DNA of 64,000 bases from Actinomyces sp. Marseille-P3109 (GTDB taxonomy: Bacteria; Actinomycetota; Actinomycetes; Actinomycetales; Actinomycetaceae). The number at the start of each line of letters is the position of its first letter. Position 1 is the stretch's first letter. Shown here piece by piece: positions 55,301 through 63,024 of this stretch. The stretch spans positions 983,144 to 1,047,143 of the forward strand of contig NZ_OOHN01000008.1 in assembly GCF_900323545.1 (NCBI RefSeq), in the 5' to 3' direction. The notes under the pieces were generated by a model. It saw only the letters and a list, made by a program, of their open reading frames with translations, did no database searches and was not told the origin of the DNA. The translations under genes and the position numbers were made by a program.

Positions 55301-55334
55301 TGGTACGCTCGTACCAATCCGGTACAAGCGTACC
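55301..55334. promoter_or_regulatory. Large dyad operator upstream of arcA
   Basis: Two 14-base sites, GGTACGCTCGTACC (55302-55315) and GGTACAAGCGTACC (55321-55334), are separated by AATCC. Each is a palindrome, and the second is the reverse complement of the first except at one base, giving a nested 33-bp dyad. It lies 75 bases before the arcA start in a 344-base divergent gap that otherwise has no gene. Its size fits a pair of repressor or activator dimers of the TetR/GntR size class; the regulator is not in this window. Confidence 0.75.
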
Positions 55335-55408
55335 ATTTCAATCGTCAGAGCTCGTGATATGTATCATGATCCACGTCAACGACACAGTGCTGTGTCAGAG
55401 AGGGAGTC

Positions 55409-56632
55409 ATGGATCTTTCCGTGGATTCCGAAATCGGGAGGCTTCGGCAGGTCATCCTGCACAGGCCTGGAGGTGAGATGCTCAGGCTCACTCCGCAGAA
55501 CAAGGACCACCTCCTGTTCGACGACGTCCTGTGGCTCGAGCGGGCCCAGGAGGAGCACGATCAGTTCGCACGCGTGCTGACTGATCGCGACGTCGAGGTG
55601 CTCTACCTCGGCGACCTCTTGGCCGAGACCCTTGAGGTGCCCGAGGCCAGGGACTATGTCCTGGACCGGGTCATCAACGAGAACACCAACGGCCCCATTG
55701 CCGCCGAGCCGATGCGGGCCCTGGCTCAGGGGCTGTCCGGAGCCGACCTGGCCGAGATCCTCATCGCCGGCATCACCAAGGCCGAGCTGCTGGAGCGCAC
55801 CTCCTGCCCGGACTCCCTGGTGCTGGCCTCCATGAACGACGACGACCTGCTCCTGGCGCCGTTGCCCAACCACCTGTTCACCCGCGACACGTCGTGCTGG
55901 GTCTACAACGGCGTGTCCATCAACTCGATGACAATGCCGGCCAGGCAGCGCGAGACCATCAACTACGAGGCGATCTACCGCTGGCACCCCCGCTTCGCGA
56001 ACGCCGACTTCCCCGTGTGGTCCGAGGGCACCCAGGCCGGTCCCGCCACTGTCGAGGGTGGAGACGTGCAGATCATCGGCAACGGCGCCGTCCTGGTCGG
56101 GGTCTCGGAGCGCACCACCGCCCAGGGCATCGAGAGGCTCGCCAGCCGGCTCTTCGCCGCGGGGAAGGTCAACCATGTGGTCGCCGTCGAGATGAAGCGG
56201 ACGCGCGCGCAGATGCACCTGGACACGGTCATGACCATGGTCGATGCCGGCACCTTCACCGTCTACGGAGGCCTGGGGATGCTGCCGACACTCACTGTGC
56301 GTCCGGAAGGCGACGGACAGATCAGCGTCACCCGCAACGACCCGGAGGACATGTACCGCGTCATCGCCCAGGCACTGGGCATCGACGACCTCACCGTCCT
56401 CATCACGCCTCAGGACTCCATGGCCGCCGCGCGCGAGCAGTGGGACGATGGTTCCAACTCACTGGCCGTCGCCCCCGGCGTCATCGTCGCCTACGAGCGC
56501 AACGTCAACACCAATGAGTACCTCACCTCCCACGGTATCGAGGTCCTGACGATCCCGGGCTCAGAGGTCGGTCGCGGGCGCGGCGGCCCGCACTGCATGA
56601 GCTGCCCGATCCTGCGGGACCCGGTCGCCTGA
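55409..56632 (+). CDS. arcA: Arginine deiminase
   Basis: The enzyme hydrolyses arginine to citrulline and ammonia, the first step of the ADI route. The 407-residue protein shows [14 protein letters not shown], the EGGDV motif, [12 protein letters not shown] and the C-terminal catalytic-cysteine loop [13 protein letters not shown]. Length and motifs are complete. AGAGGGAG lies close upstream of ATG 55409. It begins the arcA-arcB-arcC unit, which gives ATP and ammonia (acid protection) from arginine. Control is probably through the dyad upstream. Confidence 0.97.
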
Positions 56633-56718
56633 GCCGGTCCCCCATCAGCGCCTTCGGCGTCAATGAAGACAACCCATCACCCACTCAAACACTCAACCAC
56701 CCAGACGAAGGAGTCCTC

Positions 56719-57726
56719 ATGACCCACCCCCTGCACAACCGCAGCTTCCTCAAGGAGCTTGATTTCACTGCCGATGAGTGGAGCATCCTGCTCAAGCTGG
56801 CGGCTCAGCTCAAGGAGGACAAGAAGGCCGGTCGTGAGGTGAAGCGGCTGACCGGCAAGAACATCGCGCTCATCTTCGAGAAGACCTCGACTCGTACGCG
56901 CTGCTCCTTCGAGGTGGCCGCCTATGACCAGGGCGCCCAGGTCACCTACCTGGACCCCTCGGGCTCGCAGATGGGTCACAAGGAGTCGGTGGCGGACACC
57001 GCCCGGGTCCTGGGCCGCTTCTACGACGGCATCGAGTTCCGCGGTAAGAAGCAGGAGCACGTCGAGGCCCTGGCCGAGCTCTCGGGGGTGCCGGTGTGGA
57101 ACGGGCTGACCGACGAGTGGCACCCCACCCAGATGCTCGCCGACCAGTTGACCATGCTGGAGCACACGGGCAAGCCGATCGAGGAGATCTCCTTCGCCTA
57201 CCTGGGGGACGCCCGTAACAACGTGGCCAACTCGCTGCTCATCTCCGCTGCCCTGATGGGGATGGACGTGCGGATGGTGGCGCCCGCAGAGCTGCAGACA
57301 CCTCCTGAGGTGGTGGCCCAGGCCAAGAAGCTGGCGGAGAAGAGCGGAGCCCGTGTCCTCGTCACCGACGACGCCGCTGAGGGTGTCAAGGGAGTCGACT
57401 TCCTATACACCGACGTGTGGGTCTCGATGGGTGAGCCCAAGGAGGTGTGGGACCAGCGCATCGCCCTGCTGCGCCCCTACCAGGTCAACGCCGAGCTGGT
57501 GCAGGCCACCGGTAACCCCGACGTCAAGTTCCTCCACTGCCTACCGGCCTTCCATGATCGCAACACCACCGTGGGTGAGGACATCTTCACCAAGACAGGC
57601 ATGGAGGGCCTGGAGGTGACCGACGACGTCTTCGAGACCGAGCGCAACGTCGCCTTCGACCAGGCGGAGAACCGCATGCACACCATCAAGGCCGTCATGG
57701 TCGCAACCCTCGGAGACTGGGACTGA
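56719..57726 (+). CDS. arcB: Ornithine carbamoyltransferase, catabolic
   Basis: The enzyme converts citrulline and phosphate to ornithine and carbamoyl phosphate in the ADI route. The 335-residue protein has the carbamoyl-phosphate loop [12 protein letters not shown], the [10 protein letters not shown] motif and the HCLPAFHD ornithine-binding loop with its cysteine. It lies 86 bases after arcA and two or three bases before arcC; a good Shine-Dalgarno site (GAAGGAG) precedes ATG 56719. Its position between arcA and arcC supports the catabolic over the biosynthetic role. Confidence 0.96.
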
Positions 57727-57729
57727 GCC

Positions 57730-58710
57730 GTGAGAATTGTTGTTGCCCTCGGCGGAAACGCCTTGCTGCGCAGGGGCGATAAGCCCGACGCCAGCACTCA
57801 GATCCACAATGTCGAGGTGGCGGCTCGTGAGCTGGCGAAGCTGGCAGAGAAGCACGAGCTGGTCCTCACCCACGGCAACGGCCCTCAGGTGGGTGTCCTG
57901 GCCCTGCAGTCCGCTAACGACGAGCGCCTCTCGGAGCCCTACCCCTTCGACACCCTCGGTGCTCAGACCCAGGGCATGATCGGCTACTGGCTGCTTCAGG
58001 CCATGCAGAACGCCCTACCAGGGCGCCATGTGGCCGCGATGGTCAACCAGACCCTGGTCCTGGCCGGCGATCCCGCCTTCTCCAACCCCACAAAGTTCGT
58101 CGGTGAGGTCTACACCAAGGAGGAGGCGGAGAGACTGGCCGAGGAACGGGGCTGGGTGGTCAAGCCCGATGGCGATCACTACCGTCGCGTCGTCGGCTCC
58201 CCCAAGCCGCAACGCGTCATCGAGACCCGCCTGGTGCGCACGCTCCTGGATGCCGGAGCCGTCGTTGTTTGCTCCGGTGGAGGCGGCGTCCCCGTCATCC
58301 GCAGCTCCGAAGGAAAGCTCAAGGGCATCGAGGCCGTCATCGACAAGGACCTCACCGCATCGGTCCTGGCCGAGGCGCTGGAGGCTGATGCGCTTCTCAT
58401 CCTCACCGACGTCGACGGCGTGTTTGAGGACTTCGGAACCGAGAACCAGAAGCAGGTCCCGCGGGCGACGCCGGCAGCGCTGCGCGCGATGGGTCTTCCC
58501 AGTGGATCCATGGGACCAAAGGTCGAGGCAGTGTGCCGATTTGTTGAGCTGACCGGAGACATGGCGGCAATCGGACGTCTTGAGGACGCCGTTTCCATCA
58601 TTGAGGGCCAGGCAGGGACTATCGTGACCCCCGGAGGCAACTACGGTGGTCCCGACGATATTCGTCCCCCGATTCCCGAGCAAATCGACACCCGCATTCG
58701 CAGGGCCTGA
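57730..58710 (+). CDS. arcC: Carbamate kinase
   Basis: The enzyme transfers phosphate from carbamoyl phosphate to ADP, gaining ATP. The 326-residue protein has VALGGNALLRRG, LTHGNGPQVG, VVCSGGGGVPV, IDKDLTASVLA and SGDMAAIGRLED-like (here TGDMAAIGRLED), all typical of ArcC. It starts at GTG 57730, just after the arcB stop. No arginine/ornithine antiporter gene (arcD) follows; a 210-base gap and the amidinotransferase do. Confidence 0.97.
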   Translation: MRIVVALGGNALLRRGDKPDASTQIHNVEVAARELAKLAEKHELVLTHGNGPQVGVLALQSANDERLSEPYPFDTLGAQTQGMIGYWLLQAMQNALPGRHVAAMVNQTLVLAGDPAFSNPTKFVGEVYTKEEAERLAEERGWVVKPDGDHYRRVVGSPKPQRVIETRLVRTLLDAGAVVVCSGGGGVPVIRSSEGKLKGIEAVIDKDLTASVLAEALEADALLILTDVDGVFEDFGTENQKQVPRATPAALRAMGLPSGSMGPKVEAVCRFVELTGDMAAIGRLEDAVSIIEGQAGTIVTPGGNYGGPDDIRPPIPEQIDTRIRRA

Positions 58711-58920
58711 CCAGAGCGACGGCATCGGTCCTTCAAGGAGGTGGTGAGAACCGTCGACCACATATGACCATGCCATGGTTCAGCTATCATTCTTTTACAC
58801 AGTTACTCCTACGGCCACTTTTGAGGTTCCTTCAGAGTAGAATGACAGTGTTGAACCACAGACACACTTACCTGTCTCAATTCACACACCACACAACGAG
58901 CACAAAGGAGTGACTTACTC

Positions 58921-60048
58921 ATGACGAAGATCGTCAACTCTTGGAACGATTTCGACCCGCTCAAGCACGTCATCGTCGGCCGCGCGGACTTCTCGGTTAT
59001 TCCTCCCGAGGAGCCGGCCACCTCCGAGAAGGTGCCGATTGACTCCGAGATGCGCGGCATGTGGGGCCCCCGCCCCACCGCCACCGTCGAGGCCGCCAAC
59101 GAGCAGCTTGACAACTACGTCAAGATCCTCGAGGGACTGGGCGTCAAGGTGGACCGGCCCACGCCGCTGCAGTGGAACCAGGCCATCCAGACGCCTGACT
59201 TCCGCACGGAGTCGGGCTTCACCCAGATGCCCCCGCGCGACATCCTGCTCACCATCGGTGAGGAGATCATGGCCTCGGCCAACTCGTTCCGCTGCCGCTA
59301 CTTCGAGTATCTCGCCTACTGGCCCCTCATGAACCAGTACTTCGAGGAGGACCCGGAGTTCAAGTGGACCCAGGCGCCTCGTCCTCGGCTGACGGACAAG
59401 TCCTACAAGCACAACTACTACGACGAGAAGATCTCCCTGGAGGAGCGCCTCGAGCGCACCGCCGCCAAGGACTTCGTGACCACTGAGTTTGAGCCGATGT
59501 GGGACGCAGCCGACGTCATGCGTGTGGGTAAGGACCTGTTCATCCAGCACGGTCTGACCACCAACCGCAAGGCGATGGAGTGGTTCAAGCGCTACTACCC
59601 CGACCTGCGGGTGCACGCGGTGAACTTCCCCGGCGACCCCTACCCGATCCACATCGACGCCACCTTCGTGCCGCTGCGGCCCGGGCTGATCATCAACAAC
59701 CCGCACCGCCGCCTGCCCGAGGAGCAGCGCAAGATCTTCGAGGCCAACGACTGGCAGATCGTCGACGCCGCTCCCCCGGCCCACGAGGTTCCGCCGCCGC
59801 TGTGCTACTCCTCCGTCTGGCTGTCCATGAACTGCCTCGTCATCGACCACAAGACCGTGTGTGTCGAGGCCAGTGAGGTCCACCAGATGGAGCAGATGGA
59901 CAAGCTGGGCATGAACGTCATCCCGGTCCCCTTCCGTGACGCCTACGCCTTCGGCGGTGGTCTCCACTGCGCGACGGCGGACGTGTACCGCGAGGGTGGC
60001 TGCGAGGACTACTTCCCCAACCAGGTCGCTGACCCGACTCTGGTCTGA
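58921..60048 (+). CDS. Arginine:glycine-type amidinotransferase
   Basis: The 375-residue enzyme belongs to the guanidino-group-modifying superfamily. The catalytic triad can be placed by motif: Asp195 in EPMWDAADVMRVGKDLF, His244 in PIHIDATF, Cys350 in GGGLHCATADVYREGG; the spacings (49 and 106) nearly match human AGAT (254, 303, 407). Such enzymes move the amidino group of arginine to an amine, releasing ornithine. The acceptor is uncertain: glycine, lysine or an aminocyclitol; Ile243 replaces the Met302 of human AGAT. It follows arcC after 210 bases, with AAAGGAG before its ATG and a terminator behind, so it may be an independent unit. Confidence 0.9.
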   Translation: MTKIVNSWNDFDPLKHVIVGRADFSVIPPEEPATSEKVPIDSEMRGMWGPRPTATVEAANEQLDNYVKILEGLGVKVDRPTPLQWNQAIQTPDFRTESGFTQMPPRDILLTIGEEIMASANSFRCRYFEYLAYWPLMNQYFEEDPEFKWTQAPRPRLTDKSYKHNYYDEKISLEERLERTAAKDFVTTEFEPMWDAADVMRVGKDLFIQHGLTTNRKAMEWFKRYYPDLRVHAVNFPGDPYPIHIDATFVPLRPGLIINNPHRRLPEEQRKIFEANDWQIVDAAPPAHEVPPPLCYSSVWLSMNCLVIDHKTVCVEASEVHQMEQMDKLGMNVIPVPFRDAYAFGGGLHCATADVYREGGCEDYFPNQVADPTLV

Positions 60049-60057
60049 TCTCAAAGA

Positions 60058-60098
60058 GTGCGGGGCGGTGGCTCATGGATCGGGCTGCCGCCCCGCAC
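60058..60098 (+). terminator. Terminator-like hairpin after the amidinotransferase gene
   Basis: GTGCGGGGCGG (60058-60068) and CCGCCCCGCAC (60088-60098) form an 11-pair GC-rich stem nine bases after the stop codon, with a 19-base loop. There is no T tract. It would reduce read-through into the EamA gene. Confidence 0.75.
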
Positions 60099-60230
60099 CG
60101 TTCTCGGCTATGCTCAGCGCGGTCCTCGGACTCTCCGTGGAGCTGGTGACGACCGACCTGACCGCATGATGACCGGCAATGATGCCGACCTGCTGTGCAT
60201 GCCGGGAAGAACTCAGGAGACACAACTACC

Positions 60231-61244
60231 ATGTCACAGACTTCGTCCGCTGAATCCTCTGTCACAGAGTACGTGATGAACAAGAAGCTTGGTGCTATTG
60301 CCATGCTTCTCTCCGCCACCGGAATGGGCTTGGTTGGCACCATCAGCCGCGGTACAACCGCCGGTCTCGAGCCCGCCGACAAGTCCGTCATCGGATCGTT
60401 CCTGGCCTTCGGGCGTATGACCGTTGGGCTGCTCGGCTTCATTCTCATCCTCGTTCTCACCAGGAAGATCGGCTTGTTCCGGCGCACCCGCCTGAGCGCA
60501 ACCGTGATCCTGGGAGGAGTGGCCATCGGCCTGTCCCTGGGCTGCTACATCTCCTCGACGTTGATGACGTCGATCGCCAATGCCGTCTTCCTCATCTACA
60601 CAGGACCTCTGTTCTGTGCGCTGCTGGCACGCATTTTCCGCAAGGAGAAGATCAGCGTGCTTTCTGGAATTTTCCTGTCTCTGGTGTTCGTCGGCATGCT
60701 GCTGACCATCGGCATCATCGACTTCAAGAACGGAAGTCTGACCTTCGGGCTGGATCTGTCGGCCTCGTCCCCCGAGTTTCCGCAGAAGAAATTGGGAGAC
60801 CTTCTTGGCCTACTATCAGGAGTCTTCTACGGTCTGGCGATGTTCTTCTATGGATATCGCAAGGACGTTGACTCGGTTGTACGAGGCGTCTGGAACTTCT
60901 TCTGGGCCGCCTCTGCTACATTTGCGATGTCAGTCATTCTGAAGCCATGGCACGGCGTCTCGTCCTTCACCGCCACCAACTGGATGTGGGCAGTCGCCCT
61001 CTTCCTCATCTGCGGCCTGTTCGCGCTGGGATTCCTGGTCGTTGCTGGACGTAATCTTCCCGCTGTGGAGTACTCGACGATCTCCTACTGGGAGTGTCCG
61101 GTCGCCATTCTGTGCGGCCTCATCGTCTGGGGAGAGAAGCTCACTCCTGTGGGAATGGTCGGAGGTCTTCTCATTGTCGGAGGAGGGCTGGCGCCCATCA
61201 TTCTGGACGCCGTCACTCGGAAGTCCCGCTCGTCCGAGGCCTGA
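60231..61244 (+). CDS. EamA/DMT-family transporter
   Basis: The roughly 337-residue membrane protein has about ten helices in two five-helix halves, the drug/metabolite transporter fold: MLLSATGMGLVGTISRG opens the first, and GFLVVAGRNLPAVEYSTISYWECPVAILCGLIVWGE (about residues 265-300) is the typical final EamA segment. ATG 60231 has AGGAG 11 bases before; ATG 60276 (MNKKLGAI) is possible. Family members export amino acids or metabolites. Its position after the amidinotransferase suggests it moves ornithine, arginine or the amidino product, but this is inference. Confidence 0.87.
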   Translation: MSQTSSAESSVTEYVMNKKLGAIAMLLSATGMGLVGTISRGTTAGLEPADKSVIGSFLAFGRMTVGLLGFILILVLTRKIGLFRRTRLSATVILGGVAIGLSLGCYISSTLMTSIANAVFLIYTGPLFCALLARIFRKEKISVLSGIFLSLVFVGMLLTIGIIDFKNGSLTFGLDLSASSPEFPQKKLGDLLGLLSGVFYGLAMFFYGYRKDVDSVVRGVWNFFWAASATFAMSVILKPWHGVSSFTATNWMWAVALFLICGLFALGFLVVAGRNLPAVEYSTISYWECPVAILCGLIVWGEKLTPVGMVGGLLIVGGGLAPIILDAVTRKSRSSEA

Positions 61245-61252
61245 GCACAAAG

Positions 61253-61307
61253 CGTTCCTGTCTGCCCACGACCCGGTGAGAAGCCGGGTCGTGGGCAGAC
61301 AGGAACG
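61253..61307 (+). terminator. Very long perfect hairpin after the EamA gene
   Basis: Arms of 24 bases (61253-61276 and 61284-61307) are perfectly complementary around a seven-base loop. It starts nine bases after the EamA stop. It is the longest perfect hairpin I see in the window. It lacks a following T run, as do many actinobacterial terminators. Confidence 0.88.
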
Positions 61308-61392
61308 AGCGGCAACCGTCCACACAATCTGCAGATACATGAGATCATAGACACCGTCGATACCCACGATGACCGAGCCGGAGCCATAGGCC

Positions 61393-63024
61393 ATGAGTAA
61401 TGTCCACCCAAGAAGCATGAACGACTATCACTCCGATCCCGAACGCAGTCTTGCGCTGAGACGCGCAGCAAAAGCGAGTTTCATCGGAAACTTCATCGAG
61501 TGGTTCGACTATGCCTCGTACGGCTACTTGGCTACCGTCATCGGCCTTGCCTTCTTCCCCGAGGCTGATAAGTCTGTTCGGTTGATGTCGACATATGCAG
61601 TATTCGCCATGTCGTTCATTTTGCGGCCCATCGGAGCTGTTGTCTGGGGAGCCTGGGGAGATCGGTGGGGTCGTCGCTGGGCCCTATCATGGTCGATTCT
61701 CATCATGTCAGGATCGACCTTTTTCATCGGCCTTCTTCCCACATACTCAGCTATAGGTGTGGCAGGCGCCATCAGCCTTCTTCTACTGCGAATGATTCAA
61801 GGGTTCTCCGCATCAGGAGAATACGCGGGCGCTGGAACCTTCCTAGCTGAGTACGCGCCCCCTTCTCGTCGTGGAATATACACGTCTCTGGTTCCTGCGT
61901 CCACTGCATGCGGATTGCTTGCCGGCTCTCTCATGGTCACAGGAATGTTTTCGGTCCTGAGCGACGGAGCGATGAACACGTGGGGATGGCGCATTCCCTT
62001 TCTTTTAGCCGGTCCCCTGGGACTCGTTGGTCGCTACATTCGGGTTCACCTGGAGGACTCCCCTGCCTACCAGGAGATGCGTGCAGAACTACCGCAGGCA
62101 GCAAAGTCGACGAAGTCGACTACTTCTATATTTCAGCGTATGGGCCGTCACCGTCGCGGGATAGTTATATCCCTGGTGGCTGTATTAGTTCACGCAACCG
62201 CGTTTTATGCCATACTTGCATATCTTCCAAGTTATATGCAAAGGGGGCTCGGCTTAGATAGGAGGACCGCTTTTGTTGTCGTCGTATGCGGCATCTTTGC
62301 TTACATCTGTGCAGTCTCCTTTGCTGTTCGCGTAACTGATCAACGAGGACAACGACGAAATCTTATTGTCGCTTTACTGATATTCATTCTGCCCGAATCT
62401 ATTCAGGAGCTTCTAACTAATCATCGCCGGGACACTGCCATCACATTTGGCGTTTCTTGCCTCAATGCAGTTGCCTTCTATATGCTGCTGAGTTACATGC
62501 CAACTTATGTCCACGAAGAACTGGGGTTCTCACAGGATACTGCCACGCTGGCGACGTCTATAATGCTTGTGGTCTACATTGGATCAATATTTATTATGGG
62601 TCATCTGTCCGACTCTTTCGGACGCCGACAGATGCTTATTGCTGCCTGCGTCGCATTTCTCGTGCTGACCATTCCACTTTTCCTTATAATGACCAGGGTT
62701 GCTGGCATGTTCATAGCTGTTGTTCTGTGTCAGATCGTGTTTGCTATCGCTCTGACTGCGAATGATGGAACGCTGGCCACCTTCTTGGCAGAATCCTTCC
62801 CGACCAATGTACGCTACTCCGGTTTCGCTCTGTCCTTTAATGGAGCCAATGCAATTCTTGGGGGAACGACACCATTTATCGTCACCTGGCTCATCAAAGT
62901 CACTGGATCCCCGCTAGCCCCTGCAGTCTATCTTACCGTTATTGCGTTGTTTGCCATGGTGGCTATCTTCATGTCTCGCACGATTCATGGATCAGAACTA
63001 ACCGAGTCAAATACTGGTTCTTGA
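61393..63024 (+). CDS. MFS metabolite:H+ symporter with internally duplicated central region
   Basis: The N-terminal half (FIGNFIEWFDYASYGYLATVIGL, residues 30-52; RPIGAVVWGAWGDRWGRR; SASGEYAGAGTFLAEYAP) is that of ProP/MHS-type symporters for organic acids or osmolytes. Residues 253-326 (HRRGIVISLVAV...DQRGQRRNLIV) and 344-417 (HRRDTAITFGV...DSFGRRQMLIA) align along 74 positions without gaps: the helix 7-8 block with its FY..L.Y.P.Y motif occurs twice. At 543 residues it is about 100 longer than usual, and probably has 14 rather than 12 helices. The frame is intact. The base composition falls in the second half. Function may be altered or lost. Confidence 0.85.
   Translation: MSNVHPRSMNDYHSDPERSLALRRAAKASFIGNFIEWFDYASYGYLATVIGLAFFPEADKSVRLMSTYAVFAMSFILRPIGAVVWGAWGDRWGRRWALSWSILIMSGSTFFIGLLPTYSAIGVAGAISLLLLRMIQGFSASGEYAGAGTFLAEYAPPSRRGIYTSLVPASTACGLLAGSLMVTGMFSVLSDGAMNTWGWRIPFLLAGPLGLVGRYIRVHLEDSPAYQEMRAELPQAAKSTKSTTSIFQRMGRHRRGIVISLVAVLVHATAFYAILAYLPSYMQRGLGLDRRTAFVVVVCGIFAYICAVSFAVRVTDQRGQRRNLIVALLIFILPESIQELLTNHRRDTAITFGVSCLNAVAFYMLLSYMPTYVHEELGFSQDTATLATSIMLVVYIGSIFIMGHLSDSFGRRQMLIAACVAFLVLTIPLFLIMTRVAGMFIAVVLCQIVFAIALTANDGTLATFLAESFPTNVRYSGFALSFNGANAILGGTTPFIVTWLIKVTGSPLAPAVYLTVIALFAMVAIFMSRTIHGSELTESNTGS
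62149..62370 (+). repeat. Central MFS block, copy 1
   Basis: This segment codes for residues 253-326 of the MFS protein. It aligns without gaps to copy 2 (62422-62643). Shared positions include HRR at the start, AFY, Y-P-Y, LG, TA, YI and D-x-x-G-x-R near the end. The two are diverged, so they derive from different paralogues or from an old duplication. Confidence 0.75.
62422..62643 (+). repeat. Central MFS block, copy 2
   Basis: This codes for residues 344-417. Copy 2 keeps the family motif better (SYMPTYV and the GRR loop DSFGRRQ), whereas copy 1 has DQRGQRR. The short segment between the copies (ILPESIQELLTN) resembles the loop that normally precedes helix 7 in a symporter, as if the C-terminal half of a second gene had been joined here. 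Confidence 0.75.

Follow-up and report, generated by a model that had tools for sequence, protein, structure and literature searches.

An Actinomyces operon joining an amidinotransferase to the arginine deiminase pathway: a proposed route of creatine breakdown through ornithine

Which compound feeds an arginine deiminase pathway that is coded together with an amidinotransferase and two transporters? The usual deiminase pathway, as set out in part of PMC7818446, consists of three enzymes and an arginine/ornithine antiporter. In this study we focus on an operon of Actinomyces sp. Marseille-P3109, whose nearest taxa by protein identity are Actinomyces naeslundii, johnsonii and oris. All three enzymes are coded there together, full-length and in the same order, in the company of an AGAT-family amidinotransferase and betaine-type carriers and with no ArcD, the usual antiporter, in the gene series. 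The operon lies on the + strand of contig C8 (NZ_OOHN01000008.1) of a 3.1 Mb genome (G000), within a stretch of 64,000 nucleotides (contig positions 983,144 to 1,047,143) that we call the window and whose numbering we use throughout. Six genes, arcA, arcB, arcC, AGAT, EamA and MFS, follow one another at 55409-63024, with intergenic gaps of 86, 3, 210, 146 and 148 bases; the series extends beyond 61244, where the stretch covered by a preliminary description of this DNA ends.

Our preferred answer, to which we give a probability of just under six in ten, is that the operon serves for living off host creatine. The MHS-type carrier would import creatine, as a BCCT, SSF or NCS1 carrier would in relatives; where a creatininase is present, as in some of these relatives, imported creatinine would be opened to creatine. 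The amidinotransferase would convert creatine and ornithine into arginine and sarcosine, ArcA would turn arginine into citrulline and NH3, ArcB would use citrulline and inorganic phosphate to give ornithine and carbamoyl phosphate, and ArcC would form ATP, CO2 and NH3 from carbamoyl phosphate and ADP. The net yield per creatine would be one ATP and two ammonia with the ornithine returned, and sarcosine would leave the Actinomyces cell via EamA. Whereas ornithine is exchanged in the usual pathway, here it would be recycled within the cell, and being only a carrier it would require no arginine/ornithine antiporter. Gene order with its conservation, family membership, the aligned active-site residues, the operator and the patterns of co-occurrence are direct observations; from them we infer substrate, direction, transporter roles and TetR binding. 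In its broader form, the proposal is of a hitherto undescribed creatine/creatinine fermentation, in which amidino transfer to a catalytic ornithine pool is coupled to the deiminase pathway, sarcosine is exported or, in bacteria with a sarcosine reductase, reduced, and the genes have spread laterally among oral, gut, skin and urinary bacteria; we hold this to be slightly better than an even bet.

Profile matches identify arcA (55409..56632, + strand) as an arginine deiminase, here named ADI-1 (PF02274, 408 bits; TIGR01078, 489.2, barely over the cut-off of 489.1), arcB (56719..57726, +) as an ornithine carbamoyltransferase (TIGR00658, 424, over the cut-off) and arcC (57730..58710, +) as a carbamate kinase (TIGR00746, 370, over the cut-off). 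The fourth gene (58921..60048, +) matches human AGAT, and its neighbours lead us to propose that it codes for a creatine:ornithine (or guanidinoacetate:ornithine) amidinotransferase. The fifth is an EamA/DMT transporter of the EamA_B type (60195..61244, +; PF00892), with a start likelier at the ATG at 60231 than at 60195; it recurs beside AGAT and is a candidate exporter of the product amine. The sixth, an MHS-type, ProP-like MFS transporter (61393..63024, +), is a candidate importer of the guanidino substrate, and scores 388.8 bits against TIGR00883 and 343.7 against the ProP model, below their respective cut-offs of 443.45 and 544. The open reading frames, the profile matches and the alignment to human AGAT confirm the composition given in the preliminary description, namely arcA-arcB-arcC with an intact-triad AGAT, an EamA and an MFS transporter. 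As to its statement that ArcD is missing, none occurs in the gene series and no match to PF03606 (DcuC/ArcD) exists genome-wide, in a search that did not extend to APC-type ArcD.

A full-length match and the catalytic triad place the fourth protein, as far as its sequence tells, in the AGAT family of amidinotransferases. It matches the solved human AGAT at 5e-79 in an alignment covering residues 5-365 of 375; SxtG, HsvA and StrB match more weakly, and no Pfam or NCBIfam model matches at E 1e-3. Its triad, Asp195, His244 and Cys350, aligns with human Asp254, His303 and Cys407 and is unchanged in 114 of 114 aligned rows (the window plus the loci described below). Equally invariant are Asp107, Asp246, Arg263, Ser297 and Ser298, aligned to residues that we take to form the human arginine/ornithine site. 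Human Asn300 and Met302, presumably the mark of a glycine-specific AGAT, are absent from the window enzyme and replaced by Tyr241 (Tyr in 112 of the 114 rows, Trp in two) and Ile243 (114 of 114), both preceded by a one-residue insertion relative to the human protein. Animal AGAT/GATM is the nearest solved relative and has the triad and the aligned arginine/ornithine-site residues in common with the bacterial enzyme, which differs in Tyr241/Ile243 and would run in the opposite direction. Close relatives of the protein are publicly annotated as 'serine/threonine protein kinase' (e.g. in Cutibacterium acnes and Neisseria animaloris), and correct naming would undo a misannotation that conceals the enzyme.

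Conservation of the neighbourhood was followed in 149 relatives and in a scan of named genomes, of which the best 80 loci were kept. The named-genome loci and further fetched stretches gave 109 distinct AGAT loci after ten verified duplicates had been dropped; 26 of the 109 have less than 4 kb of flank on one side, and absences there are not firm. Neighbour tables were built from direct protein matches, carriers being matches to EamA, MFS or SSF queries within 8 kb. AGAT occurs in 50 of the 149 relatives, with full-length matches 82-100% identical (that of G061 is partial, at a contig end). A matching carrier accompanies AGAT in 82 of the 109 loci, and these contain EamA in 70 cases, MFS in 69, TetR in 58, at least one arc gene in 54 and all three arc genes in 41. 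The 27 loci with no query-matching carrier belong to Pseudomonadota (25), one Brachyspira and one Peptococcaceae, and at least four of them (L110, L113, L129, L132) have EamA-family genes of other kinds close by. Among the matches listed, the genera with the unit are Actinomyces, Schaalia, Mobiluncus, Cutibacterium, Slackia, Gordonibacter and Neisseria. Moreover, a distant ArcA (37-39%) adjoins AGAT in Brachyspira (L123), Adlercreutzia (L089) and Phoenicibacter (L075), and ArcB-ArcC lie downstream of AGAT in Crenobacter (L095, L098).

The preliminary description had linked the amidinotransferase functionally to the arc genes and the transporters, and had suggested looking for their co-location in other genomes. 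The co-location is conserved in Actinomycetota, with distant arc-AGAT pairs in Brachyspira, Eggerthellaceae and Crenobacter, and because of this conservation, distant pairings included, the functional link is borne out; chance adjacency of AGAT, arc and carrier genes is ruled out by the same conservation. Furthermore, Neisseriaceae AGATs nest among the Actinomycetota copies in the AGAT tree, and the unit has therefore probably moved laterally.

Pointers to the substrate come from genes that accompany the transporters in relatives. Of the 82 carrier-bearing loci, 22 have a creatininase among the transporters or next to them, always together with an EamA_A transporter (22 of 22). Half of these creatininase loci (11 of 22) have a BCCT carrier, whose nearest solved relatives are trimethylamine, choline and betaine transporters, and no locus without creatininase has one. 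The two creatininases tested, from Neisseria (L101) and from the window's own genus (L040), reach 339.6 and 314.2 bits against the creatininase equivalog model (cut-off 235) and match a solved creatininase at 7e-89 and 1e-84. In a Peptococcaceae locus (L130) AGAT stands with an NCS1 carrier and a weaker creatininase-family protein, which is excluded from the 22 yet labelled CRN+ in the tree.

The distribution of creatininase and creatinase among genomes points the same way. Creatininase-family genomes below 82 bits (11 of 29) and creatinase matches below 74 bits were dropped. A creatininase above 300 bits occurs in 18 of the 149 relatives, and by coordinates an AGAT lies within 3 kb of it in 17. 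The eighteenth (G129) has no AGAT; its locus L163, in which creatininase, creatinase, an NCS1 carrier and a sarcosine oxidase-like protein of 861 residues are close together, is a classical creatinine locus. In a class-wide sample of 296 genomes, which overlaps that of the relatives, only G377 has a creatininase at E 1e-50; a creatinase lies 84 bases from it, and the genome gave no match to AGAT. In both samples a true creatininase is always paired with creatinase or AGAT, as if AGAT replaced creatinase. Creatinase itself is present in five of the 149 relatives and in none of the 50 AGAT genomes; no creatinase-like open reading frame was found in the AGAT loci, and the best creatinase match in the window's own genome has 30 bits, against more than 600 for true ones. 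The proposed route would have in common with the creatininase-creatinase pathway of L163 and G377 the creatininase family, present in related loci, a nearby uptake carrier and the step from creatine to sarcosine. Creatinase, however, uses water and releases urea, whereas here it is absent and AGAT with ornithine would take its place, nitrogen being released as ammonia and one ATP being made.

Nearly identical amidinotransferases occur both with and without a creatininase. In a tree of 114 AGAT rows, made by a quick method that leaves 34 of 109 inner branches open, creatininase presence switches 17 times, at least six of the switches being forced by well-supported branches. L145 has a creatininase and L148 has none, yet their AGATs share 99.5% identity. 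Locus L061 holds two AGATs identical over 371 residues, one ahead of EamA_A-creatininase-BCCT and the other ahead of EamA_B; L139 is arranged in the same way with copies 98.1% identical, and L095 has two copies 99.2% identical in a different arrangement. Therefore, if the creatininase-linked enzymes use creatine, the near-identical copies, that of the window included, most likely share it as their substrate.

Of 109 relatives with a deiminase match, two weak ones (G049 and G140) were dropped before counting, and an arginine deiminase is then present in all 50 AGAT genomes versus 57 of the 99 others. A count by eye within the genus gives deiminases with 60% or more identity to ADI-1 in 30 of 37 AGAT genomes and in one of 12 others; that exception, G018, has a completeness of 89%, with its gene close to a contig end. 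AGAT-free members of the family outside the genus carry deiminases 53-61% identical to ADI-1, so no tie between ADI-1 and AGAT holds there. A deiminase search by way of the loci covered 50 of the best 80 loci, from 49 genomes. All 29 genomes with Actinomycetota, Neisseriaceae or Kistimonas loci (G149-G177) match the deiminase model, G162 only by fragments at contig ends, and so does one Brachyspira (G188).

As to the fate of the amine, use of sarcosine would be expected in some relatives if it is formed from creatine. Full-length B subunits of glycine/sarcosine/betaine reductase (PF07355) were found in five of 27 genomes, at least two in each: Kistimonas, Gudongella, a Bacillota and both Brachyspira. 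The PF07355 profile cannot separate glycine reductase from sarcosine or betaine reductase, and a conversion of guanidinoacetate to glycine fits equally. Four of the five are exactly the genomes whose loci have an SSF symporter beside AGAT, and the fifth is Brachyspira innocens. Two further genomes have weak partial matches, and no match was found in the four Actinomyces genomes tried, the window's genome lying outside the 27.

The operon is preceded by a tandem operator, two exact GGTAC-N4-GTACC palindromes at 55302..55315 and 55321..55334. A TetR-family gene (L164; PF00440, 28.7 bits, cut-off 24) is coded downstream at contig positions 1047883-1048650, 740 bases beyond the end of the window, and its product likely binds the operator ahead of the first gene. 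We defined the operon head as the 450 bases before and 300 bases after the mechanical start of the open reading frame. Of 45 mostly Actinomycetaceae loci with sufficient DNA upstream, 30 have the core GTAC-N4-GTAC at the head, and head stretches account for 48 of the 52 core matches in 854,699 bases. Where the listing has no arcA, the motif precedes arcB; in L033, where the arc genes are missing, it precedes AGAT. In the window's own genome a reversed-pattern control gave three matches versus eight. The full 16-base palindrome TGGTAC-N4-GTACCA has one other genomic site, at C8:1549687, which by eye lies between proteasome-ATPase-like and valS-like genes and is probably due to chance. A search for an operator common to the inner genes singled out only the arcA-proximal palindromes as an operator-like pair.

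The MFS protein of the window has 543 residues and its ortholog from A. naeslundii NCTC 10301 has 538; compared with 454-residue orthologs, both have an additional stretch in frame (about residues 253-343). Residues 1-333 and 347-543 of the protein each align to ortholog residues 256-333, and this part is seemingly duplicated; comparison of the protein with itself at E 1 gave no internal match.

Several observations weigh against a creatine route. The extra stretch may impair the MFS carrier of the window, and the window's own genome has no creatininase match, so the substrate there would be creatine itself. Creatininase-family proteins can act on other substrates, and to our knowledge animal AGAT uses neither creatine nor sarcosine. 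Taken alone, the mutual exclusion of AGAT and creatinase is non-significant (p 0.17) and could be chance; the Fisher tests of co-occurrence (p 9e-10 and 1e-8) are uncorrected for kinship. Within the genus, a distant ADI-2-type deiminase is the only one listed for seven of the 37 genomes with AGAT, and no full-length deiminase match was found in B. innocens, Gudongella and two other Bacillota, all with AGAT, or in any of the 15 carrier-free Pseudomonadota genomes tried. Fifteen of the 45 loci lack the operator motif at the operon head, and none was seen at Eggerthellaceae or Neisseriaceae operon heads. Gammaproteobacteria and other Pseudomonadota have AGATs 72-77% identical with no query-matching carrier (L103-L109, L111-L119, L121, L122, L125-L129, L131, L132). 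In these enzymes the Ile is kept throughout and the Tyr nearly so, while the gammaproteobacterial ones are accompanied by neither arc genes nor matching carriers, so that Tyr and Ile do not mark the proposed pathway; no clear functional partner was found in these loci, where EamA-family genes of another kind lie near L113, L129 and L132.

The main competitor, which we regard as unlikely, keeps the same cycle and changes the donor. Guanidinoacetate and ornithine would give arginine and glycine, with the creatininase-family protein opening cyclic glycocyamidine or forming a side branch. This would be the textbook AGAT reaction in reverse; it agrees with the lack of a true creatininase in the window and in 33 of the 50 AGAT genomes, and glycine reductase would handle glycine as sarcosine reductase handles sarcosine, a difference to which PF07355 is indifferent. 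Creatine is favoured over guanidinoacetate by the neighbouring enzyme, which passes the creatininase equivalog model, by the differing residues at the positions of human Asn300 and Met302, and by the near-identical AGATs with and without creatininase. It is quite improbable, in our view, that the reaction runs in the direction given by the preliminary description. Arginine would then be the amidino donor, with glycine, sarcosine or another amine as acceptor, and the product would be exported by EamA or MFS or kept as an osmolyte or phosphagen, the deiminase using the remaining arginine. AGAT reactions are near equilibrium, creatininase is reversible too, and EamA carriers are often exporters. 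On the other hand carriers of the BCCT, SSF, NCS1 and ProP-like kinds mostly serve uptake, in the classical locus L163 the same creatininase is accompanied by creatinase, NCS1 and a sarcosine oxidase-like protein, and reductase subunits occur in the SSF-type genomes. The second arginine-to-ornithine arm exporting a guanidino product is not supported, and the creatininase, the betaine-type uptake carriers, the absence of creatinase, the reductase subunits of SSF-type relatives and an ornithine loop closed without a known ArcD suggest the opposite. On these grounds the direction first given is probably backwards: a guanidino compound would be imported and its amidino group passed to ornithine, making arginine for the deiminase.

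Published evidence bears on both the creatine route and a last alternative. In the parts of PMC6314084 that concern Actinobaculum massiliense, each of the proteins 01647-01650 (ArcA, ArcB, ArcC and AGAT) exceeds its level in rich culture more than 8-fold when measured in urethral catheter biofilm, with AGAT ranking among the table's more abundant proteins. The same parts state that effects of urine are inseparable from those of the biofilm, which tempers support for the creatine route, as does the gene series of A. massiliense strain FC3 (L067), which is without creatininase. The authors assigned the four proteins to a polyketide pathway (PMC6314084), and the amidinotransferase could accordingly be a secondary-metabolite enzyme of polyketide or aminocyclitol type. 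The family contains such enzymes (CyrA, SxtG, StrB), and in two marine loci, L106 and L111, AGAT has as its neighbour a SnoaL-like protein of the polyketide cyclase family, with a cluster-mate in L114. We consider this very improbable, given that no biosynthetic gene is among the recurrent neighbours identified in the 82 carrier-bearing loci (neighbours scanned in part), and that the 82-100% identity of full-length matches in relatives looks like core metabolism, the 16 other matching genomes of the class sample being only 26-46% identical.

The host produces creatine and creatinine as plentiful waste, and creatinine serves as the standard marker for the kidney. If the proposed breakdown of creatine is true, host-associated bacteria would gain a host-supplied substitute for arginine through a route yielding ammonia and ATP, dental plaque and urine would have an extra source of ammonia, creatinine levels might shift, and arc operons without an antiporter would be accounted for. 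The components are known, and what would be new is an amidinotransferase in place of creatinase. The part of PMC8745165 on creatine and creatinine breakdown treats the enzymes separately, and a literature search, mostly at the level of abstracts, found no description of AGAT with the deiminase pathway in this role.

Two minor observations concern arginine deiminases. In Cutibacterium namnetense (G153, L073) the deiminase appears as two overlapping pieces (C1:45394-46607), as if frameshifted. The window's own genome codes for another arginine deiminase at C8:1984838-1986115 (L052:4989-6332), which stands alone, neither arcB nor arcC being seen alongside. It is 47% identical to ArcA, and its presence rules out ADI-1 as the sole arginine deiminase of the cell; full-length copies 43-48% identical are listed, by eye, in 40 of the 49 genomes of the genus.

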